A stretch of DNA of 32,208 nucleotides. Source: Treponema sp. (GTDB lineage Bacteria; Spirochaetota; Spirochaetia; Treponematales; Breznakiellaceae). The translations under genes were made by a program, and so were the position numbers. The DNA lies in contig JAIRRB010000035.1 in NCBI GenBank assembly GCA_031256195.1, positions 1 through 32,208 on the forward strand, read 5' to 3'. Shown in pieces: positions 27,173 to 32,208 of the stretch (positions are counted from its first letter, which is position 1; each line of letters starts with the position of its first letter). The notes beneath the pieces are model-generated. The model was not told where the DNA came from, ran no database searches, and saw only the letters and a list, made by a program, of their open reading frames with translations.

Positions 27173-28387
27173 CTATATATCAAAATGAGCTTGATCGGTA
27201 ATGTGCGCTGTTTCTATATTCAGCACCCTGATATTAAGTTTGCGAGCGCTGCTTGCGCCGCTTATCCAGCAGAGTACCGCGTATTGCGCGCCCAGTTGAT
27301 GGCCTATCGAAACGGCTGAATTGTCGTCCACGTTTCCAGACAACTGGAATTCCTGTTCAGCGTTAATCAAAGCCTGACTCGAACGGTCAACTACCTTTAA
27401 ATTTCCCGCCTGAACAACGGATGTGATTATCTGATCTACCGCATCATTAAGCATGGAGCGTTCAGTAGATTTTGTTTGCATAATCATGATAACTGCGCCG
27501 GAGGGCAGTTTTGAATTGAGCACATCGGCTGCATTTTTTACCGCCTTCACAGCCAATCCGGTTCTTTCACTGTCAATCTGGGCCATTTGGACGCTGACGG
27601 CGGCATCGCTTTCGATAGCCTGCCTGAGGATGTCGGCATTTACCCCGGCGGCAACACTGCCGTATCTCTCGGCAATTTCATCGTATTGCCTTATAGCCTC
27701 CTGATATTCGCCATTCTTGACAATGGCCAGAGCCATCTTCATCAGTTGCTTCACCGTTTTGTCTTTTAAGGTTTCATTCATCAATGTGCGATTCGTACTG
27801 ACAACCGTCGGGACAATATCCTGCTGTAGGCTTCTCATTTGAGAATCAACAATTTTTTTCGCAAGTGTCAGCGCATCAGCCAGATTGGCATACGATTCCG
27901 TACTGGAGTCGCTGCTTGAACCCTGTTTTGAAACCTGTCCGAGTTCCATACCGGTCCTTGAACTCCTAACGCCGTACACAAATGCCACCGAGACCTTGCG
28001 TGTATAGGTGATGGTAACAATGGTGTTCCCGTTTTTATCTGTCCTTTCATGCGGAGTCTGCGATTCTTCCGATGCGACGCTCCTTAACTCACCGAAGAAA
28101 ACCCCGTCCGCATTGGGATCGGCCGGGGCTACGATAATAAATTTTCCGGTAGCCGGAATCATTGACTTCGCCCGATCTGTCAGATGCTGCGTAAGCTGCG
28201 CGCCCAGAGAGCCGCCAACCCCGCTTTTATTTTCAAAATCCCTGATACCCAGACTCTTTACGGTGTTCATTCCACTTATGGTAGGCATTCTTACCGACTT
28301 GATAGGTACTGATGTGGCGCAGCCCGCCAAACTTAACATGATTACCGCCTTAACGGCGATAATTCCCCATTTTGTCAGGCTCTTCAT
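27173..28387 (-). CDS. Lipoprotein with CsgG/LpoB-like C-terminal domain
   Basis: Lipobox LSLAGCATS; C-terminal DQIITSVVQAGNLKVVDRSSQALINAEQEFQLSGNVDDNSAVSIGHQLGAQYAVLCWI resembles CsgG/LpoB. Confidence 0.7.
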   Translation of the reverse strand: MKSLTKWGIIAVKAVIMLSLAGCATSVPIKSVRMPTISGMNTVKSLGIRDFENKSGVGGSLGAQLTQHLTDRAKSMIPATGKFIIVAPADPNADGVFFGELRSVASEESQTPHERTDKNGNTIVTITYTRKVSVAFVYGVRSSRTGMELGQVSKQGSSSDSSTESYANLADALTLAKKIVDSQMRSLQQDIVPTVVSTNRTLMNETLKDKTVKQLMKMALAIVKNGEYQEAIRQYDEIAERYGSVAAGVNADILRQAIESDAAVSVQMAQIDSERTGLAVKAVKNAADVLNSKLPSGAVIMIMQTKSTERSMLNDAVDQIITSVVQAGNLKVVDRSSQALINAEQEFQLSGNVDDNSAVSIGHQLGAQYAVLCWISGASSARKLNIRVLNIETAHITDQAHFDI

Positions 28388-28517: not shown

Positions 28518-28922
28518 TTATTCGTAATCCTTGTGGATCACAAACATAAATTCATAATCATAAGAACCGTAATGAATTGAATTATTGTCAGTCGCATAAC
28601 GTATTGCTATCATACCATTTCTTTCAAGTGAGGCAATAAAGTCGTCAACCTGCGAGCCAAACCCTCTGGCTCGCATAGAATTTTTTACATCACCAATTGA
28701 TTGATTTATAAAACTCATCCCCACACTGGTACTCTCTTGCTTTTTTACATATTCAAGAGCGCTTTTACCTGAATAAATGAAAAGCATACTGTAGGTACTT
28801 GAAGAAATGCCATAATATGACACCTTATAACCTTCTTCCCATTCATTACCGCACCCAACAACCATCATTCCGAATACCAGTGTCATTACCAGCATTCCCA
28901 ACCAGAACCTTTTGTTTACCAT
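28518..28922 (-). CDS. Small lipoprotein sharing a leader with neighbours
   Basis: MVNKRFWLGMLVMTLVFGMMVVGC lipoprotein signal; unrecognised mature domain; SD aaggag. Confidence 0.75.
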   Translation of the reverse strand: MVNKRFWLGMLVMTLVFGMMVVGCGNEWEEGYKVSYYGISSSTYSMLFIYSGKSALEYVKKQESTSVGMSFINQSIGDVKNSMRARGFGSQVDDFIASLERNGMIAIRYATDNNSIHYGSYDYEFMFVIHKDYE

Positions 28923-28935
28923 TTGTTTTCTCCTT

Positions 28936-28953
28936 CACTTTGGCGACAAAGTG
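28936..28953 (-). promoter_or_regulatory. Hairpin immediately upstream of the SD of the 28922 lipoprotein
   Basis: CACTTTG-GCGA-CAAAGTG directly adjoining the SD; same stem recurs at 32026-32043. Confidence 0.6.
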
Positions 28954-29243
28954 TATAAAAAATTAAACAGCTCATACGAGCCATTTTATCCAAATAAACC
29001 GCCGTCAGGCGGGCCGCAAAATTAATTTACGCCTAAAATGCCATATACTTTTAGATTTTCACTCAATTCCATGAACTGTTGAAAAATCATCCTATAAGGT
29101 TCATTTAATTTGTATTATTACATTTTCATGGTGTTTTGTCAAGCATTTTAAGACCTATTATGATTATATTATGTATTTTTTCTGATATTTTCGGCATTTT
29201 AGGCTGTTTTTTGTGTTTTTCAAGTCATTTAGACTAAAGGTGT

Positions 29244-29570
29244 ATGGAAATAAAGACACTTTTTGGGTTAAATCTGAAACGCTATCGAAAAGAAAAGCGT
29301 TTTTCGCAGGAACAACTGTCAGAAAAAATAGACATATCGGTTAAGCACTTAAGTAAAATCGAAAGGGGATTAACGTTTATATCCGCCGACCTCCTTGCAA
29401 AAATATCAAATAATCTGGGGGTTTCTGTCGCTCGTTTATTTTGTATGGAAAATGAAAATATTTATGATGATAATGTATTGAAAAAATTTGACAGGATAAC
29501 AGAGGAACATCTTATAAGAGCAATGGAAGGAATAAAAGGTGATATAAGGAAAAATGAAATAGACGGTTAA
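29244..29570 (+). CDS. XRE-family HTH transcriptional regulator
   Basis: FGLNLKRYRKEKRFSQEQLSEKIDISVKHLSKIERGLTFISADLLAKISNNLGVSVARLF, a Cro/CI-type HTH. Confidence 0.9.
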   Translation: MEIKTLFGLNLKRYRKEKRFSQEQLSEKIDISVKHLSKIERGLTFISADLLAKISNNLGVSVARLFCMENENIYDDNVLKKFDRITEEHLIRAMEGIKGDIRKNEIDG

Positions 29571-29722
29571 ACTCAAAAGAGACACCATACGCACCCCGCA
29601 AAACCGCATTTTAATGCTCCTTGTTTGTGGTGTATTTTCATGCTATATTTACCTTATGATGCCGTGACGCCGTATGGCGGCGCTTAAATCCATTCCGCTC
29701 ATCACGCGGACCGGAGGGACGC

Positions 29723-29962
29723 ATGAGCGTTACTCAAACCGTAGAAATACCCGCCAATCATCGGTTGATCCTTGACGTACCCCGCGAAGTACCGGCGGGG
29801 CCGGTTATTCTTACTTTTACTCCGGCAAAGTACGGAAGTAATCCCCGAACCGCTGCCCCTGACCGCAAGCCTATTTCGAAATATTTTGGAATTCTTTCTC
29901 CAAACGTTTATGGTGATGGTGTGGCTTATCAGCGAAATATTCGGGATGAGTGGGATGAATGA
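29723..29962 (+). CDS. VapB-like antitoxin candidate
   Basis: 79 aa; placed directly upstream of and overlapping a PIN/VapC-like start; C-terminus ISKYFGILSPNVYGDGVAYQRNIRDEWDE resembles VapB-type antitoxin tails. Confidence 0.5.
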   Translation: MSVTQTVEIPANHRLILDVPREVPAGPVILTFTPAKYGSNPRTAAPDRKPISKYFGILSPNVYGDGVAYQRNIRDEWDE

Positions 29963-30071
29963 AAGCCGTTTTGTACTTGATACCAATGCGGTGATTTTTC
30001 TTACTACAAGGGGTAATGTAATACCATCCGGCCTTGAATGGCCCGGTTTTAAAACTAAAAACATAGGTTAA
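29955..30071 (+). pseudogene. Truncated PIN-domain (VapC-like) toxin
   Basis: MNESRFVLDTNAVIFLTTRGNVIPSGL keeps the N-terminal PIN motif (LDTNAVI) but ends at 38 aa. Confidence 0.6.
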
Positions 30072-30109
30072 TATAACTTCCTTATTTCTCATTCTCCCTG
30101 TAAACAAAC

Positions 30110-30142
30110 TGTCCGCCGTCTGCTATGGCAAACAGGCGGACA
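30110..30142. terminator. Hairpin between convergent genes
   Basis: TGTCCGCC (30110-30117) / GGCGGACA (30135-30142), between the VapC remnant and the minus-strand lipoprotein; no clear U-run. Confidence 0.4.
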
Positions 30143-30191
30143 AGTGTGGTTACATATTTATGTATGTCGTAAAACCTGTTAAACCAGAGAA

Positions 30192-31013
30192 TTACCAGTC
30201 ATCGGAAGGCGGTGTACTGGAATTATTAAACGCTATCTGGTATGTACCGCTCGTGGAAGAATCGTACTGAAATACACTACCTTGTGTTACCCTTACATAG
30301 TAGACCTGTCCGTTCGTTACTATTAAAGGTGTGTAATTATTACCTCTACCACTGCGCAAGTTGCTTGCATTACCAAGCGCATCACCGGAATTTGAATAAA
30401 GTCGAATATCCATATTATCCATTGTTCCGAAAATGACATGAAAATATTGTGTACTTGCGTTTGCAGTGAACTTGAACCACTGCTCACCGTTAACCAATAT
30501 ATTCCCATCTGCCCATACTCCAGTGTAAAGACTAACCGCTACGTCAAAAGTGCCGGGCGTAAATTGTACGGAATTGAACGTTATTCGGTATGTACCGCTC
30601 GTGGAAGAATCGTACTGATATACAGTACCTCGTGTTATCTTTACATAATACACCTGTCCGCTTGATACCGAAAAAGATTCATAATTATCACCTCTACCAC
30701 TACGCAAATGGAGTGCATTACCAAGCGCATTACCGGAATTTGAATAAAGTTGTATATCCATATTATTCATCGTTCCGAAAATGACGTGAAAATATTGCGT
30801 ACTTGCGCTTGCAGTGAATTTGAACCACTGCTCACCGCCATCTGGAACAGTACCATCGCTCCAGACATTGGCAGTAAGTTCGATTGCGTTTTTTGGGGTT
30901 TTATTGCCACTATCATCATCATTGTCATCTGTTGGAACATCACACCCAACAACCATCATTCCGAATGCCAGTGTCATTACCAGCATTCCCAGCCAGAACC
31001 TTTTGTTTACCAT
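30192..31013 (-). CDS. Lipoprotein with two tandem PPC-like beta-sandwich repeats
   Basis: Start taken as ATG at 31013 (SD aggaga) rather than 31031; leader MVNKRFWLGMLVMTLAFGMMVVGC; two ~116-aa repeats each containing GEQWFKFTA.ASTQYFHVIFGTM.NMDI.LYSNSG.ALGNA..LRSGRG.NY. Confidence 0.8.
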   Translation of the reverse strand: MVNKRFWLGMLVMTLAFGMMVVGCDVPTDDNDDDSGNKTPKNAIELTANVWSDGTVPDGGEQWFKFTASASTQYFHVIFGTMNNMDIQLYSNSGNALGNALHLRSGRGDNYESFSVSSGQVYYVKITRGTVYQYDSSTSGTYRITFNSVQFTPGTFDVAVSLYTGVWADGNILVNGEQWFKFTANASTQYFHVIFGTMDNMDIRLYSNSGDALGNASNLRSGRGNNYTPLIVTNGQVYYVRVTQGSVFQYDSSTSGTYQIAFNNSSTPPSDDW

Positions 31014-31040
31014 TTGTTTTCTCCTCGTCATTAAAATATT

Positions 31041-31056
31041 ACTCTATATTTAGAGT
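31041..31056. promoter_or_regulatory. Operator-like dyad 1
   Basis: ACTCTA-TATT-TAGAGT. Confidence 0.65.
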
Positions 31057-31074
31057 TGTCTTTAGTATATTCCC

Positions 31075-31090
31075 ACTCTAATTTTAGAGT
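31075..31090. promoter_or_regulatory. Operator-like dyad 2
   Basis: ACTCTA-ATTT-TAGAGT, same half-sites as dyad 1, 34 bp away; 8 bp before the XRE start codon. Confidence 0.65.
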
Positions 31091-31098
31091 CAAGCGGT

Positions 31099-31305
31099 AT
31101 GGAGAAGGAAACAGAAAAAATTTTAGAAAAAATTCGCCAAAAAAGGCTCGAAAAGAAACTTTCGCTACTCCATTTGGCACAGGAGCTGGGTATTTCACAT
31201 AGCCATTTATATTATATTGAAAGCAAGAGGGTGATTCCTTCGATTGATGTTATTGTAAAAATCGCCAAAGCATTGGATTTTCCCTTAAATGATTTATTGG
31301 ACTAA
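31099..31305 (+). CDS. Small XRE-family HTH regulator
   Basis: 68 aa; KKLSLLHLAQELGISHSHLYYIESKRVIPSIDVIVKIAKALDFPLNDLLD. Confidence 0.9.
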   Translation: MEKETEKILEKIRQKRLEKKLSLLHLAQELGISHSHLYYIESKRVIPSIDVIVKIAKALDFPLNDLLD

Positions 31306-31344
31306 TTGACTGGTTTGCCGTATTTTCGGGTTTTACTGGATGAG

Positions 31345-31466
31345 GGTATCATACCGCAGGGTTCGTCAACAATAGTTGACACGCCCTGTACCCGCCTGAC
31401 AGCTGAAAGCGGTCAGGTCTTCCGCAACAGAGCTCGAACCATAGGTTCGGCGGGGTATTATACCCC
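31345..31466. repeat. Array of five short inverted repeats
   Basis: GGTAT-C-ATACC (31345-31355); GTCAAC-AATA-GTTGAC (31365-31380); CCTGAC...GTCAGG (31395-31417); CGAACC-ATA-GGTTCG (31435-31449); GGGGTAT-T-ATACCCC (31452-31466). Confidence 0.8.
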
Positions 31467-31494
31467 TCAGCACGAATAAATCTTTTACGCCGTA

Positions 31495-32013
31495 TTACGG
31501 TTCATCAGGCTCTTTCTTCCCGCTTTCACCATGATCACCTTCAGTTCCCCACCATTGAGTCACAATGAAGATTACCGTTGTGCCTTCAACTTCCAGTGTA
31601 CCCTTATATGCGTCATAGTAATCCCCTATTGCACGAGACACAGACCCCTGCGGCGGCGGCATAACTGGATCCTTATCACCAGTTCCGCCTCTATCCATAA
31701 ATGCCAGTGTCCAGTTATTGCCAGAAATGGTCAATTTTTGTTTACCGTTATCATCACTATACCATACGCCGCTCAGCAATACTCCGCCGGCGCCTTCCTT
31801 GATAAATGTCACCTGATTGGCTTTATGAAAATCTTCTTCTATGAATATCTTCGTATTGTTATCCGACAATATTCCCGTCATGGGCAGGTATTCACCAGGT
31901 TTTACCGCAATCCAATGCGGAGTTTTATTTGAGTCTTCATCACACCCAACCACCAGTATGGTGAAAACCAGCGCCATTAGCAGTATTCCCAACCACAACA
32001 TTTTGTTCGCCAT
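31495..32013 (-). CDS. Lipoprotein with related leader peptide
   Basis: Start taken as ATG at 32013 (SD aaggag) rather than GTG at 32028; MANKMLWLGILLMALVFTILVVGCDED leader; unrecognised mature domain. Confidence 0.75.
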   Translation of the reverse strand: MANKMLWLGILLMALVFTILVVGCDEDSNKTPHWIAVKPGEYLPMTGILSDNNTKIFIEEDFHKANQVTFIKEGAGGVLLSGVWYSDDNGKQKLTISGNNWTLAFMDRGGTGDKDPVMPPPQGSVSRAIGDYYDAYKGTLEVEGTTVIFIVTQWWGTEGDHGESGKKEPDEP

Positions 32014-32025
32014 TTCTTTCTCCTT

Positions 32026-32043
32026 CACTTTGGCAACAAAGTG
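32026..32043 (-). promoter_or_regulatory. Hairpin upstream of the SD of the 32013 lipoprotein
   Basis: CACTTTG-GCAA-CAAAGTG; identical stem, loop differing by one base from the 28936-28953 copy. Confidence 0.6.
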
Positions 32044-32208
32044 TACATTATGCGTTTGAATTCATAAAAAAATGGCCCTTAATACCAGAGGTTCTTGACT
32101 AGCACTTTTCCGATATTTTGAACAGTTTTTGAAAATAGGCAACTGATCATCGGTATAAATGACCGATTTTTCAATGATTTAACCCTCTTTTGAGCAGTTT
32201 CTACGATT

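Follow-up and report, generated by a model that had tools for sequence, protein, structure and literature searches.

The window analysed here, a stretch of 32,208 nucleotides, is one entire contig (JAIRRB010000035.1) of a Treponema sp. draft genome (GCA_031256195.1; 249 contigs, 81% complete). Towards its right end lie three genes for predicted lipoproteins (genes 1, 2 and 3), each opening with a version of the same leader block, together with two divergent genes for regulators of the XRE/HTH_3 family, XRE-1 and XRE-2 (Table 1). The leader block spans the Shine-Dalgarno (SD) sequence, AGGAGAAAA in copies 1 and 2, up to the codon of the lipobox Cys. Copies 1 and 2 are identical at 81 of 83 positions, a figure first counted by eye in the original prediction, which was made from the letters of this stretch, and borne out both by direct alignment and by a repeat finder that independently recovers the same block (family D2). 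Read on the coding strand, identity sets in at AGGAGAAAACAAATG, the SD sequence, and ends with the TG of the Cys codon; outside these limits the two sequences differ on both sides, and the sharp edges reported at the outset are thus real. The diverged third copy placed before gene 3 is also there, with 76% identity over 83 nt, and, as had been proposed, no two of the three mature proteins can be aligned. A 21-nt core pattern of the leader, read with up to three mismatches, is found twice in the window against 0.01 matches expected by chance.

The statement that the 5′ untranslated regions (UTRs) are different is correct for the pair of genes 1 and 2 but wrong for that of genes 1 and 3, the hairpin segments of which share 97% identity over 29 nt (28927-28955 and 32017-32045). 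Gene 1 is therefore itself a mosaic, since its UTR hairpin resembles that of gene 3 and its leader that of gene 2. Upstream of the gene 3 hairpin stands TTTATGAATTCAAACGCATAAT, which is conserved elsewhere too. The hairpin was considered as a structured regulator and rejected in that role: its stem is conserved, yet only one base pair has changed on both sides, and for this reason it is rated a minor feature.

Table 1. Features of the lipoprotein array in the window
Feature	Position	Strand	Evidence and remarks
Gene 1, lipoprotein, 134 aa, leader MVNKRFWLGMLVMTLVFGMMVVGC	28518..28922	-	Mature domain without curated family match
Leader block copy 1, SD to Cys	28852..28934	-	81/83 to 30943-31025
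5′UTR hairpin CACTTTGTCGCCAAAGTG, class-A UTR, directly upstream of the gene 1 SD	28936..28953	-	97% over 29 nt to gene 3 copy; conserved in other genomes, weak covariation
XRE/HTH_3 regulator 1 (XRE-1), divergent to gene 1	29244..29570	+	Pfam HTH_3 E 8.7e-14; homologues adjoin different exported proteins
Small open reading frame, then truncated PIN-like start FVLDTNAVIFL (region 29723-30071)	29723..29962	+	No family match; sequence inspection
Gene 2, lipoprotein, 273 aa, leader MVNKRFWLGMLVMTLAFGMMVVGC, two tandem PPC-like repeats	30192..31013	-	PF04151 E 2.5e-6
Leader block copy 2, SD to Cys	30943..31025	-	81/83 to copy 1; SD breakpoint in trio test
Predicted palindromic operator ACTCTAAATATAGAGT, proximal to gene 2	31041..31056	.	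Exact pattern match; 34-35 bp from its partner, five genomes
Probable promoter of gene 2: -35 TTGACT (31088-31093), -10 TATACT (31064-31069), 18-bp spacer	31064..31093	-	Inferred from consensus; conserved in relatives
Predicted palindromic operator ACTCTAAAATTAGAGT, distal	31075..31090	.	Exact pattern match, pair
XRE/HTH_3 regulator 2 (XRE-2), 68 aa, divergent to gene 2	31099..31305	+	Pfam HTH_3 E 3.4e-13; same head in G007, G008, G013, G022, G037 with other cargo
Gene 3, lipoprotein, 172 aa, leader MANKMLWLGILLMALVFTILVVGC	31495..32013	-	Sequence, family and mature-group comparison
Leader block copy 3	31943..32025	-	76% to copy 1
5′UTR hairpin CACTTTGTTGCCAAAGTG before gene 3	32026..32043	-	97% over 29 nt to gene 1 copy

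Far from being confined to these genes, the block is widespread in the genus and the family. BLAST (E<=0.001) finds nine leader copies in the genome of origin and gives a positive result in 20 of the 40 genus genomes, and a nucleotide model of 90 positions, built from 37 leader copies, matches all 40 and counts 25 in the genome of origin (E<=0.1), many more than the three first described. At E<=1e-6 the model is positive in 142 of 200 family genomes, representing 43 of 59 genera; order-wide, 92 of the 93 positive genomes belong to this same family and the lone outsider is marginal (6.7e-7). Because the positives include G069 and G080, two single-contig genomes that are 99-100% complete, the leader is not an assembly artefact of metagenome-assembled genomes (MAGs). 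Nearly all named relatives with the same core are Treponema MAGs, and our own reading of the isolate names points to termite guts as their source. At one locus (L181, G183:C100) the leader gene is present twice, as identical inverted copies ~2 kb apart, possibly an assembly palindrome.

About 88 leader genes were read out, and the 77 scoring above 35 bits form the analysed set. All 77 encode a hydrophobic stretch followed by [GAS]C and have the positive n-region, h-region and lipobox Cys of lipoprotein signals, and lipidation is accordingly predicted. Acidic residues are frequent just after the Cys (49, 39 and 39% at +1 to +3, and 25-49% over +1 to +6, versus 11% later in the protein). The mature parts fall into 50 groups, 33 of them single and 17 with two to five members; their Pfam domains, mostly with one member each, include fn3, PPC, BspA-type LRR (LRR_5), F5/8C, FGE-sulfatase, CIA30, lipocalin-like and others, among which fn3, PPC, BspA LRR and F5/8C are of extracellular type. 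A related leader start in the genome of origin (L007) heads a non-lipoprotein, MANKRFWFVLLIAILVLGSAFAQS.

Only one gene family recurs widely beside leader genes, namely XRE (36 loci in 20 genomes). The two regulators of the window match HTH_3 with 51.7 and 49.8 bits (curated cut-off 23). Of 67 leader genes, 37 have a divergent XRE gene no more than 500 nt upstream, as compared with 4 of 74 having one downstream (<=1500 nt, either strand); two of these four are the window's own XRE genes, both facing the leader gene that comes next. For other genera the upstream figure is 7 of 18. The regulators, which the original prediction had described, along with toxin-antitoxin debris, as interleaved with the lipoprotein genes, are not debris but a statistically strong partner module, so that XRE gene and operator have to be counted among the shared modules together with UTR and leader. 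The head in front of gene 2 is the clearest case. Its palindrome, ACTCTAwAwwTAGAGT, is found in nine genus genomes and not at all as a reversed control; five genomes carry two exact copies with a spacing of 34-35 bp next to the same XRE, a small protein (67-70 aa if complete, shortened in G008), and one of the copies overlaps the -35 element, as in the window, where the -35 of gene 2 overlaps the distal operator. A sixth genome, G007, has one exact palindrome and one near-copy. In these six genomes the XRE/twin-operator head faces six different exported proteins, three with the leader, one a lipoprotein bearing a different signal peptide and two whose signals are of the signal-peptidase-I type. 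The corresponding locus of G022 (L227) aligns with the window, other leader copies aside, only over 30939-31306, that is between the stop codon of the XRE gene and the Cys codon, with non-homologous flanks, and the flanks of the heads examined have no match to the window. Where relatives of XRE-1 stand without the leader, 14 of 18 partners look exported, whereas for control genes the proportion is 20% (Fisher p 1.3e-6, by an approximate, rule-based call); a looser hydrophobicity rule, with a background of 51%, had been replaced by this stricter one. Operators in every XRE-leader spacer were also considered, and the ACTCTA pair alone was convincing. A type II toxin-antitoxin system with an XRE antitoxin, recognizable by a co-directional abutting toxin, was rejected as well, the partners here being divergent and exported.

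The histories of these parts can be followed separately. Ordinary paralogy, by which one lipoprotein family would have undergone many duplications and kept its signal peptide while its mature parts diverged fast, fits the 17 groups with several members and the tandem neighbours with similar leaders, but different Pfam folds are found among the mature parts (fn3, LRR_5, FGE-sulfatase, PPC, F5/8C and lipocalin), and where they are homologous, at 52-74% identity, their leaders often stay at background level. Thus L090 and L144 share 74% in the mature part with leaders at 0.62-0.68, L126, L137 and L138 share 66-69% with leaders at ~0.6, and L121 and L132 share 52% with leaders at 0.61-0.63. Conversely, all 16 pairs of XREs with at least 55% identity (55-90%) have unrelated mature parts, and the five pairs with related mature parts in which both have an XRE all have distant XREs. 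Breakpoints tell the same story. In the trio test gene 1 changes at the SD from gene-3-like to gene-2-like, and gene 2 changes at the SD from L101-like to gene-1-like (permutation p 0.0002 each); gene 2 has its XRE, operators and UTR in common with L101, from another species, and its leader in common with gene 1. Identity runs from XRE through UTR and leader and ends at the Cys in L111/L132 and in L101/gene 2, fades ahead of the ATG in L105/L121 and is lost within the leader in L112/L130. The clustering of breakpoints at the SD and the Cys codon, which had been put forward as a check, was thereby found, and full-length paralogy was not; we regard paralogy as very improbable. As judged from these alignments, the leader blocks are shown to be homologous DNA, the three modules to have separate histories, and the junctions to lie at the SD and the Cys codon, some others falling ahead of the ATG or within the leader.

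One lipoprotein family (..FQRGSGGDTTILLRQGLDFDQAFREVAFLLNRHGFE..) has the leader in many genera (L121, L132, L155, L162, L164, L166, L169, L170 and L173) and is a possible orthologue set for dating leader swaps.

Averaged over the 2884 pairs of leader genes whose mature parts are unrelated, identity amounts to 0.27-0.29 upstream, climbs at the SD, stays at ~0.4-0.78 across the leader and returns to background within ~20 nt past the Cys, apart from a residue due to acidic codons. Selection alone could be invoked, unrelated genes having converged without DNA exchange on a sorting or translation signal in the manner of YSIRK; conservation at the protein level is indeed strong, a sorting role is plausible and an acidic tether after the Cys is common. 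However, synonymous codons are position-specific across genomes and unrelated genes (Val -8 is GTA in 47 of 54 cases, Val -3 GTT in 43 of 46). Codon identity at positions with the same residue is 0.613, compared with 0.454 +/- 0.005 when codons are shuffled among same-residue positions within each leader and with 0.354 +/- 0.008 when they are drawn from the mature part. Such position-specific choice across unrelated proteins implies that the leaders share DNA ancestry, and the 81/83 near-identity in the window extends to the SD and the spacer. Over the last 48 nt, leaders have an identity of 0.66, versus 0.40 for other lipoprotein signal peptides at the same loci (n=11). Convergence is thus very unlikely as the origin of the block, and selection may maintain it but does not create it. 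Leaders are also more similar within genomes than between them (0.691 versus 0.654, a difference reached in 0 of 2000 permutations), an excess not taken as proof of gene conversion because genome composition and local tandem duplication could contribute.

The original prediction spoke of a mobile or gene-converting leader. The part that stands is a homologous block exchanged independently of the proteins; the part that does not is a block that moves itself, no transposase or recombinase family recurring within 4 kb of leader genes and the window array having no match to plasmid or phage records at the search sensitivity used (nor any to Rfam). With one genome per species, gene conversion would look the same as plain recombination or crossing-over. 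Assembly by site-specific recombination, through integron cassettes or a phase-variation invertase, has some points in its favour: some leader genes are preceded by a conserved palindromic sequence, GTTATGTGCCATAAAA...TTTTATGAATTTAAACGCATAA, with a sharp start, Treponema chromosomal integrons exist (PMC3607928), vpma and vsp use Xer1 (PMC2268961), and IntI-like tyrosine recombinases below threshold occur in the genus. Yet the integron integrase model TIGR02249 exceeds its cut-off in 0 of 40 genus genomes, the element has the polarity GTT...AAC, opposite to attC, no integron was reported in two termite isolates (PMC3607928), no recombinase recurs near leader genes, and the breakpoints lie at several places rather than one. 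The integron hypothesis, which the sharp GTTATGTGCCATAAAA start had prompted, was dropped on the grounds of polarity, integrase and literature, and site-specific assembly as a whole is given very little probability; neither self-mobility nor an integron nor a dedicated recombinase has support in these data. The tyrosine recombinases in question, of ~400 aa and present in many genus genomes (e.g. G023:C3:1659-2465, G038:C217, L047-L052), match the integron-integrase model at both ends with the middle missing, and the genome of origin has weaker tyrosine recombinase matches only. Upstream of leader genes L004, L005, L020, L021, L041 and L053, unrelated sequence gives way abruptly to a conserved element, TTATGTGCCATAAAATCTGAAA...TTTTATGAATTTAAACGCATAA, that is palindromic in part, and all four exact copies of TTATGTGCCATAAAA in the genome of origin precede leader-like exported-protein genes. 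This element may be a UTR, a promoter element or MITE-like (resembling a miniature inverted-repeat transposable element); the window has no close copy of its left arm.

Least probable of all is a prophage-type lysogeny module, in which a repressor stands beside a superinfection-exclusion lipoprotein: an XRE/CI-like repressor with twin operators does adjoin a lipoprotein and XRE-1 has sub-threshold similarity to the RstR family, but PADLOC matched 0 of 77 mature proteins, there is no phage or plasmid DNA match and no recurrent phage gene family among the neighbours, and the mature folds are of adhesive or carbohydrate-binding types.

The closest precedent is found in the vpma genes of Mycoplasma agalactiae and the vsp genes of M. 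bovis, in which 5′UTR and signal-peptide DNA are conserved and mature parts differ, no significant vsp-vpma homology extending beyond the 5′UTR and N-terminal regions (PMC2268961). The leader genes share this combination of conserved 5′UTR/signal-peptide DNA with divergent mature parts. However, vpma and vsp form one locus with a single promoter, where Xer1 acts in the 72 nt before the start codon (PMC2268961), whereas here the genes are dispersed across the genome in many species, with many private divergent XRE repressors and with no recombinase or fixed site found. As with YSIRK, one characteristic signal peptide is seen on many surface proteins of a lineage and a shared export route is conceivable; YSIRK, however, is a protein motif on cell-wall-anchored proteins, while the leader is near-identical DNA that includes the SD and has a predicted lipid-modified Cys as anchor. 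Autoregulated Cro/CI (XRE) pairs, with a small HTH_3 protein, a divergent promoter and twin palindromic operators over the -35, resemble the heads described here, except that the same head here precedes many unrelated exported proteins and leader genes often have different heads. Treponema integron cassettes (PMC3607928) likewise have a modular gene repertoire with conserved DNA at gene boundaries, but the leader system has no integrase over cut-off, no attC polarity, scattered genes and a conserved block that is partly coding. A literature search, with most subscription journals outside its coverage, found no published description of this leader system.

Taken together, we consider it probable that these genes belong to a large exported-protein repertoire of a single family of termite-gut spirochetes, tri-modular, mosaic and locally repressed, in which the SD-to-Cys block is one joint. 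Each unit would consist of up to three exchangeable modules, namely a small XRE repressor and the divergent promoter and operators that go with it, the stretch from SD through lipoprotein signal peptide to Cys, at times with the conserved UTR hairpin ahead, and a variable mature domain. The XRE protein would repress the divergent lipoprotein gene via the twin operators. Sec export and lipidation would lead to display on the envelope, most likely at the surface, with the acidic tether perhaps guiding the protein. New combinations may be produced through gene conversion and through recombination, homologous or short-homology, with the leader/SD block as joint and the clustering of leader genes as a possible aid.

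Several points weigh against this mosaic repertoire. Surface location and repression are predictions, and no within-strain switching was seen in data that consist of one consensus genome per species. As no recombinase was found near leader genes, the mechanism is read from sequence patterns alone. The XRE partnership is common and not obligatory, since 30 of 67 leader genes have no XRE within 500 nt. The test for exported partners relied on a home-made signal-peptide rule, with partners cut to 60 aa. Palindromes in XRE-leader spacers, the ACTCTA pair aside, are only slightly above the shuffled value (7.05 versus 6.1). Mantel correlations of leader with XRE and of leader with mature part are not significant, which modularity predicts and which short-sequence noise also fits.

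A further proposal is put forward tentatively, and we hold it to be rather doubtful: that the block is a maintained recombination joint, through which pools of private repressor/operator heads and surface domains would be joined by leader homology within populations, as a recombinase-free, family-wide counterpart of antigenic-variation loci. The mosaic repertoire would in any event provide an example, extending over a whole family, of the separate exchange of three modules (promoter/repressor, translation-plus-export signal, functional domain) with junctions visible to the base, so that how bacteria give a new protein its regulation and export becomes directly testable. The 83-nt block also serves as a marker with which uncultured termite spirochetes can be searched for their surface lipoproteins, most of which have no annotated function.

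Among the remaining features of the window, the small open reading frame and PIN-like start at 29723-30071 are probably a toxin-antitoxin remnant between modules and outside the module itself. The PPC-like domain of gene 2 is a tandem internal duplication of 294 nt, 83% identical (30225-30866). Adjoining the array, 27173-28387 encodes a lipoprotein with weak LpoB/DUF3280 similarity, and a sequence related to it (MITNITSRDSQSQREVRNQDGTTRIVTTYRRDVTLAFTYEIKSSRTNMTIGSVTKRGETS) stands beside an XRE-1 relative at L208.

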